A stretch of DNA of 49,251 nucleotides, from positions 1-49,251 of the forward strand of contig CALWDY010000025.1 in NCBI GenBank assembly GCA_944376825.1, given 5' to 3'. Every line of letters starts with the position of its first letter. Positions within the stretch are counted from its first letter, which is position 1. A program made the translations under genes and the position numbers. This DNA comes from an uncultured Clostridia bacterium. Its GTDB lineage: Bacteria; Bacillota; Clostridia; Christensenellales; UBA1242. A model generated the notes under the pieces. It was given only the letters and a program-made list of their open reading frames with translations, was not told the origin of the DNA and did not search any database. This document shows positions 47,269 to 49,251 of the stretch, piece by piece.

Positions 47269-47302
47269 AAAAACTACTATGTAATTAATAGTAGTTTTTT
47301 TG
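47267..47302. terminator. Bidirectional terminator between spoIIE region and scfB
   Basis: AAAAAACTACTA and TAGTAGTTTTTTT form a perfect stem over a loop of about nine bases. It serves both converging transcripts. Confidence 0.88.
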
Positions 47303-48676
47303 CTTTATATTTTCTCTTGCAACTTGCATCATTATTGCGCATTCAATTCTTTTTTTAAACAGTTTGCAACCATATTCATAAACACCTGTAATATCGCCTG
47401 TTGCATGGTATGCATTAGCGGCACACCCACCACTGCAATAAAGTTTTGCCCAGCAAGATGCACAATCTTTTCTTGCATATGCGTTACAATTTTTAAATTT
47501 ATTTACCAAATCTACATTTGTTATGCCATCGTAAATATTGCCTAAACTATAATTATTGTCGCCAACAAATTGATGACAAGGGAAAAGTTCTCCCCATGGT
47601 GTTACAGCCATATATTCTGTTCCACTTCCGCATCCACTTATTCTTTTATATATGCAAGGTCCGTTTTTTAAATCTAACATATAGTGGTAGAAGGTGAAAG
47701 GTCGACCTTCCTTTTCTCTTTTTAACATTTCTTTTGCCAAAATTTCGTATTGTTCATATAAAATTGGCAAGTCTTCTTCTGTTAGTGCATATGGATCTTT
47801 TGGACTACACACAACAGGTTCCATGCTAAGCTCTGTAAAGCCAAGGTCTGCCATGTGAAAAATATCTTTTGTAAAATCTGTGTTGTTGTGGGTAAATGTT
47901 CCACGAACATAATAATTTTTGTTGCCACGCTTTTTAACAAAATCTAAAAATTTTGGAATAATTATGTCATACGATCCCTTACCAGAAACCGTTTTTCTTA
48001 AATTGTCGTGGATTTCTTTTCTTCCATCCAAACTTAAAACAACATTATGCATTTCTTTATTGGCAAAATCTATAACATCATCATTTATGCTCATTCCATT
48101 TGTTGTTAGTGTAAACCTAAAATTTTTGCCTTTTTCCTTTTCTATGTTTCTTGCATATTCAACAATTTTTTTAACAACATCAAAATTGAGTAGTGGTTCA
48201 CCGCCAAAAAAGTCAACTTCAAGGTTTCTTCTTGTTCCACTGTTTTCAATCAAAAAATCTATAGCACGCTTTCCAACTTCATAACTCATAATGGCACGCT
48301 CGCCGTGATATTTTCCTTGACTTGCAAAGCAGTATTGGCAGTTAAGGTTACAAGTGTGTGCAACATGCAAACAAAGTGCTTTAACAACTGTGTTTCTATT
48401 TTTAAAATCAAATGCCTTGCCTTTAAAGGTATCTTGTGTGAAAAGTTGTTTGCTTTTTTTTAGTTCTTCAATATCACAAAAAACATCATCAATTTCTTGA
48501 CTTGTTACAGTTTTATCATTTTTATATTTTTCAAGCATTTTTAATTTTATTTCTTCTTTTGGCGTGTTTTCATAAAGTGAAATGATGTCATATGCAAGGT
48601 CATCAACTGTGTGTACACTGCCACTAAATACATCTATTACAATATTGTATCTATTTAATTTATATTGGTGTATCAT
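47285..48676 (-). CDS. scfB: Radical SAM maturase of the SCIFF peptide
   Basis: 463 residues from ATG 48676, which has GGAG five bases upstream; the frame is open to 48763 but the extra part covers the leader hairpins. It forms thioether links between Cys and other residues of the precursor peptide. The radical SAM cluster is HTCNLNCQYCFA (Cys-x3-Cys-x2-Cys); a SAM-site FGGEPLLNF follows. The C-terminal SPASM domain is Cys-rich (PCIYKRISGCGSG, LFPCHQF, DCASCWAKLYCSGGCAAN) and would bind two more Fe-S clusters. The N-terminus (residues 1-90) is the RiPP recognition-like part. scfA lies 107 bases upstream. Confidence 0.95.
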   Translation of the reverse strand: MIHQYKLNRYNIVIDVFSGSVHTVDDLAYDIISLYENTPKEEIKLKMLEKYKNDKTVTSQEIDDVFCDIEELKKSKQLFTQDTFKGKAFDFKNRNTVVKALCLHVAHTCNLNCQYCFASQGKYHGERAIMSYEVGKRAIDFLIENSGTRRNLEVDFFGGEPLLNFDVVKKIVEYARNIEKEKGKNFRFTLTTNGMSINDDVIDFANKEMHNVVLSLDGRKEIHDNLRKTVSGKGSYDIIIPKFLDFVKKRGNKNYYVRGTFTHNNTDFTKDIFHMADLGFTELSMEPVVCSPKDPYALTEEDLPILYEQYEILAKEMLKREKEGRPFTFYHYMLDLKNGPCIYKRISGCGSGTEYMAVTPWGELFPCHQFVGDNNYSLGNIYDGITNVDLVNKFKNCNAYARKDCASCWAKLYCSGGCAANAYHATGDITGVYEYGCKLFKKRIECAIMMQVARENIKQKNYY

Positions 48677-48783: not shown

Positions 48784-48933
48784 TTAGTCTGCACAATTTT
48801 CGCATTTTTGGTTTGCAACACCACATGATGTTTTGCATGCTGATTGGCAAGATGTTTGACATTCGCCACAACCACATGTTGAAAGGTCTTGATCTACTAA
48901 TTTTCTTGTGTTTAATGTTTGTATTCTTCTCAT
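48784..48933 (-). CDS. scfA: SCIFF ribosomally made peptide precursor, eight Cys
   Basis: 49 residues, too short for many gene callers. It starts MRRIQTLNTRKLV and has the family core CGECQTSCQSACKTSC and the later NQKC. Six Cys (22, 25, 29, 33, 37, 44) occupy the usual spacing; two extra Cys lie at 20 and 47. SCIFF peptides are found in nearly all Clostridia and are linked by ScfB; their role is unknown. AAGGAG precedes ATG 48933 and a consensus promoter is at 48960. scfB follows on the same strand. Confidence 0.95.
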   Translation of the reverse strand: MRRIQTLNTRKLVDQDLSTCGCGECQTSCQSACKTSCGVANQKCENCAD

Positions 48934-49114: not shown

Positions 49115-49145
49115 TTGACACGACGGGGGGGGGGTATCCTATTAT
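49115..49145 (+). promoter_or_regulatory. Promoter with a ten-G tract in its spacer
   Basis: Consensus TTGACA (49115-49120) and TATTAT (49140-49145) are separated by 19 bp that include ten consecutive G (49125-49134). Losing two G would give the ideal 17. The tract is extraordinary in DNA this AT-rich and sits where slippage would change promoter strength for the gene at 49219. Confidence 0.65.
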
Positions 49146-49218
49146 TAGTTATACAATATATACATTTTTATATGGCAAGTTGTTCACAATATATGTATAA
49201 AAAATAAAAGGAGAAGAG

Positions 49219-49251
49219 ATGAGAAAAAAGAGCAAACTTTTTTTAAGCATG
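49219..49251 (+). CDS. Start of a gene cut by the window end
   Basis: ATG 49219 follows AAAAGGAG at a good distance. Only 11 codons are seen, MRKKSKLFLSM, a basic start leading into hydrophobic residues that would suit a signal peptide. If so the product is exported or on the surface, which would fit a phase-variable promoter. Confidence 0.6.
   Translation, partial: MRKKSKLFLSM

Follow-up and report, generated by a model that had tools for sequence, protein, structure and literature searches.

The promoter at the end of the contig

The window, a stretch of 49,251 nucleotides from an uncultured Clostridia bacterium of the order Christensenellales, ends where its contig (C25) ends, and its last features are a promoter and the start of a gene, all on the forward strand and assigned by direct reading. 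The -35 box, TTGACA (49115-49120), which recurs at the tracts of the genus, is followed by CGAC, by a homopolymer of ten G (49125-49134), by TATCC and by a candidate -10 box, TATTAT (49140-49145), which leaves a spacer of 19 bp (49121-49139). A ribosome-binding site, AGGAG (49209-49213), precedes the ATG at 49219, where a surface-protein gene starts (MRKKSKLFLSM..., 49219-49251) and is cut by the contig end. A reading of the sequence alone had placed the G10 run between these two boxes at this spacing and had seen no comparable run elsewhere in the window. Both observations hold, as no other run of at least seven G or C exists on either strand. The four heptamer matches found all lie within the run, against a mean of 0.25 in dinucleotide shuffles, and none of 100 shuffles reached four.

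This arrangement suggests a sigma-A-type promoter with a slippage-prone G tract inside the -35/-10 spacer. Gain or loss of Gs at replication would alter the distance between the two boxes, the altered spacing would change promoter strength, and the outcome would be a heritable and reversible variation in the expression of a signal-anchored surface protein. We consider it likely that poly-G slippage in the spacer works in this way as an on/off switch for the gene. The sequence-only reading had taken TATTAT as the -10 box. This hexamer is indeed present at 19 bp, but another candidate, TATCCT (49135-49140), abuts the tract and gives a spacer of 14 bp. With TATTAT, the 17-bp optimum needs a G8 tract, and G10 therefore predicts a weak or OFF state; with TATCCT, the optimum would be G13. 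The idea that slippage would carry the spacer through the optimum gains support, as a predicted switch, from the recurrence of the tracts, their length differences and their length floor at nine, even if it needs G8 when TATTAT is used. Together with the position of the -10 boxes and the class of the controlled genes, these results also support the proposal that the locus is a candidate phase-variable surface-protein promoter.

The reading frame opened at 49219 runs off the contig. The last 117 bp of the window are identical to the last 117 bp of contig C21, and overlaps of 59 bp join the tails of both either to C21 at its start or to C9 at its end. The gene is thus probably one of two paralogues, and would continue as G000:C21:27 (504 aa) or as G000:C9:23177 (379 aa); the assembly is compatible with either, and we cannot say which. 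Both candidate continuations begin MRKKSKLFLSMASMVLTVALFCFGVYAALGVSYTISGSVVYQVKDVFVNIQTSLY, and a scan of the two against NCBIfam gave no match. On its other side, the promoter adjoins a ranthipeptide pair on the reverse strand (47285-48676 and 48784-48933), consisting of a radical SAM maturase (TIGR03974) and a SCIFF peptide (TIGR03973), both above their cut-offs.

Recurrence of the tract and class of the downstream genes

The promoter carries the only such tract in the window, but three more promoters of this kind exist in the genome and many across the order. The window's genome (G000, 1.05 Mb) contains five tracts of at least ten G, on contigs C17 (11), C21 (14), C24 (12), C25 (10, the window) and C33 (11). 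Four of the five have TTGACA 1-4 bp upstream and TATCCTATTATTAG downstream, and these four lead to paralogues of one N-terminal family, which has 14 matches in this genome. The motif TATCCTATTATTAG is conserved 3' of the tract in every tract-bearing family copy of G000 and of its relative G001, and a -10-like hexamer abuts the tract in most relatives. The tract-less paralogues that we read in G000 often have ordinary -35/-10 promoters, such as TTGACT-18-TATAAA and TTGACA-17-TAGTAT. In three of the tract-less copies (L079, L147 and L148), repeated or inverted motifs, among them ACAAATGTGTT and TCACAAAGTGATG, lie across the promoters and may bind ordinary regulators.

Across the genus, 72 tracts of at least nine G occur in 14 of 17 genomes, with lengths from 9 to 21, and 59 of the 72 have a -35 box within 10 bp upstream (0-10 bp, at most one mismatch). 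Readable downstream DNA (190 bp or more, or a match to the family) is available for 36 of these 59, and 34 of the 36 precede the signal-anchored N-terminal family; the remaining 23 reach the end of their contigs. The members of the family have the promoter and the N-terminus in common and differ in the remainder, which often consists of BspA-type leucine-rich repeats: Pfam LRR_5 (PF13306) exceeded its gathering score in six of nine family proteins. No part of the alignment of 13 proteins was sufficiently conserved to scan the collection with, and the scan relied on six N-termini that are closer to one another. In the predicted structure of the first 225 residues (pLDDT 84), a helix leads into a beta-rich domain. 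Structural searches with this domain returned nothing convincing (best Foldseek E-value 7.5e-4 at a TM-score of 0.17; best VIA match Z 6.8, with an rmsd of 3.5 over 119 residues), and we therefore assign no family from structure. Since each tract-bearing paralogue has its own tract, a population would show a combinatorial mix of surface proteins.

A TA...T hexamer matching at least five of the six positions of TATAAT begins no more than 14 bp past the tract at 76 of 100 readable loci, compared with 34 of 400 control windows taken 25-70 bp further downstream. Measured to the best hexamer, most spacers in the genus have 19-21 bp, and most of those from other genera 15-21 bp. The many long spacers of the genus imply either that most copies are in the OFF state or that the -10 assignment is off. 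The homopolymer sits between the -35 and -10 boxes, as assigned by sequence, in the manner of promoters of the porA, tp0126 and fetA type.

The genes under these promoters are mostly surface genes, with some exceptions: the signal-anchored family within the genus, and an excess of lipoproteins elsewhere. By a crude regular expression for the lipobox, applied to loci hand-picked from lists with their product disregarded, a lipoprotein is predicted downstream of the tract at 29 of 57 loci of other genera, against 13 of 161 other open reading frames there (Fisher p 4.6e-11). At 18 of the 57 loci the downstream gene has no signal by a simple rule, and some of these, including aldolase-like and isomerase-like genes, look cytosolic.

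In the order, 91 of 396 genomes and 36 of 142 genera have TTGACA followed within 0-9 bp by nine G, and the reversed-pattern control was near zero there with the exception of one genome (G367). In a search of 391 genomes of the class, 5 of the 19 belonging to the order were positive, compared with 4 of the other 372. A poly-C tract occupies the same place in 27 of the 396 genomes of the order, none of them among those sampled from the window's genus. TTGACA-linked runs of six or more G numbered 64 in eight genomes, and 59 of them had at least nine, a floor not expected if run lengths simply tailed off. It is fairly probable that, throughout this mostly uncultured order, dozens of genes for lipoproteins and BspA-like surface proteins are switched independently of one another by poly-G and poly-C spacer promoters and form an order-wide phase-variable set, with up to about 13 tracts in reduced genomes.

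Tract-length differences and competing explanations

The sequence-only reading had proposed comparing tract length among related genomes. We found no tract-bearing orthologue of the window locus, upstream homology ending at least about 90 bp short of the -35 box in G021, G001 and G003, and the comparison was therefore made at other loci of the relatives, between genomes or between copies, from assembly sequences. Tract length does differ at single loci with conserved flanks. The clearest case opposes L055 (genome G024) and L070 (G005), which share 99.54% identity across 4814 bp, with 20 mismatches and a single gap; this gap is the tract itself, G12 in one and G10 in the other, and the flanks align without gaps over 641 and 4161 bp. 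A third relative (L062) has G14 and 93% identity upstream. Similarly, L152 (G002) with G7 and L076 (G011) with G12 differ by two mismatches in the 310 bp downstream, and L075, also of G011 and G12, is 96.8% identical to L152 across 440 bp, upstream side included. Several family promoters of G002 have runs of only six or seven G, with spacers of 15-19 bp. Two paralogues of G108 have G11 and G12 within flanks that are 95-97% identical. Beyond these differences, we infer that Gs would be gained and lost within a population, that this would affect transcription and that the switch would have a biological role.

One genome departs from this pattern. In G118, of genus g63, nine of ten listed tracts are exactly G9, paralogues included, which suggests stability or constraint there, so that the evidence for instability comes from the window's genus and a few further cases. 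Loss of mismatch repair could be ruled out as a cause of slippage in the genus, because MutS is present in 16 of its 17 genomes; slippage is thus not raised in this way.

The G run might instead be a fixed regulatory element, either a regulator's binding site or a spacer preferred by a sigma factor, in which length does not act as a switch. The uniformity of G118 fits this idea, as do the tracts of genus g28, mostly G9-G10, and the -35/-10 distances of mostly 15-20 bp outside the window's genus. Yet, it is at odds with the range of 9 to 21 within that genus and with the G7/G12 and G12/G10 pairs at near-identical loci. The poly-C tracts found in the same place also speak against it, as tracts made of either G or C are better explained by an effect of length than by a sequence-specific protein site. 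We regard a fixed element as unlikely and the slippage switch as the better explanation.

Long G runs can form quadruplexes, and the tract could be mainly a recombination hot spot, as a G-quadruplex or breakage site, that drives the exchange of cassettes among paralogues. This potential speaks for such exchange, as do the paralogues with a common promoter and N-terminus and differing C-termini, but it accounts poorly for the placement of the tract between the -35 and -10 boxes, for its presence at lipoprotein genes of other families or for the poly-C forms. As the main function of the tract, recombination is very improbable, although it could operate in addition to the promoter switch.

The notion that the tracts are sequencing or assembly artefacts draws on their frequency near contig ends and on the degraded look of the sequence after some very long ones, but as regards the existence of the tracts it is already contradicted by the same arrangement, with exact flanks, in independently assembled genomes and by the near-zero reversed-pattern control, and is extremely improbable. 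The lengths of homopolymers in metagenome-assembled genomes are consensus values, and single lengths above about 15 are doubtful; at contig ends such lengths deserve little trust, given the degraded sequence that follows them. Five contigs of relatives (L027, L052, L061, L069 and L072) stop 45-90 bp past long G runs, in sequence that looks degraded, and the tracts themselves seem to break assemblies.

Related systems and tracts away from a -35 box

Multigene families with one promoter homopolymer per gene have a counterpart in the surface lipoproteins (vlp) of Mycoplasma hyorhinis, a member of the Mollicutes in which the homopolymer is poly-A. The claim that tracts of this kind are switches in other bacteria is borne out by three precedents. 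The porA promoter of Neisseria meningitidis has poly-G in the -35/-10 spacer, as in the window, with an optimum at 17 nt (PMC7864442); it drives a single outer-membrane gene of a Gram-negative pathogen, whereas here many genes of a Clostridia order are concerned. The tp0126 gene of Treponema pallidum, a spirochaete gene for an OmpW homologue, likewise has poly-G between the boxes and is best expressed at a distance of 17 nt (PMC7864442). The fetA promoter of Neisseria gonorrhoeae has its homopolymer in the same spacer, as poly-C of 10-14 across strains (PMC5320596), in contrast with the G of the window and like the poly-C in other genera of the order.

Two further systems resemble ours in other respects. 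Phase-variable BspA-like surface proteins were inferred from metagenomic reads in Candidatus Mycoplasma girerdii (PMC5476646), but there the repeats are tandem, mostly dinucleotide, and alter the reading frame instead of promoter spacing. In Bifidobacterium breve, a Gram-positive gut commensal, a sortase-dependent pilus is switched by slippage between G9 and G12, in a tract that lies inside the coding sequence; the same work raised G-quadruplex formation as a sequencing concern (PMC9187656). The mechanism is thus already known from porA and tp0126, while the host group, the scale and the gene set appear to be new; a limited open-access search found no literature combining Christensenellales and phase variation. 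If our interpretation is correct, a major uncultured group of Clostridia varies its surface by promoter slippage throughout an order, with a bearing on interactions with hosts and phages and on strain diversity. The idea can be checked directly in existing metagenomic reads, and it carries a warning that metagenome-assembled genomes break at, or misstate, poly-G loci of this type.

A few long G runs lie away from any -35 box. The fifth tract of the window's genome (L009, G000:C17:13030-13040, minus strand, G11) is 2 bp before the ATG of a gene of 225 aa (MEKLKKILLISSL...), where it covers the ribosome-binding region; its effect could instead be on translation. In L034 (G021:C24), two G9/G10 tracts about 1 kb apart each lie 65 bp 5' of a gene whose product resembles type IV pilins at its N-terminus (MEYHNNKFLGFTLPEVLITIVIIGV). 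Finally, a G17 run in L029 (G009:C4) stands 158 bp ahead of a reading frame starting MAKIAIVGASGVVGRTVLDIL, which we take to resemble aspartate-semialdehyde dehydrogenase.
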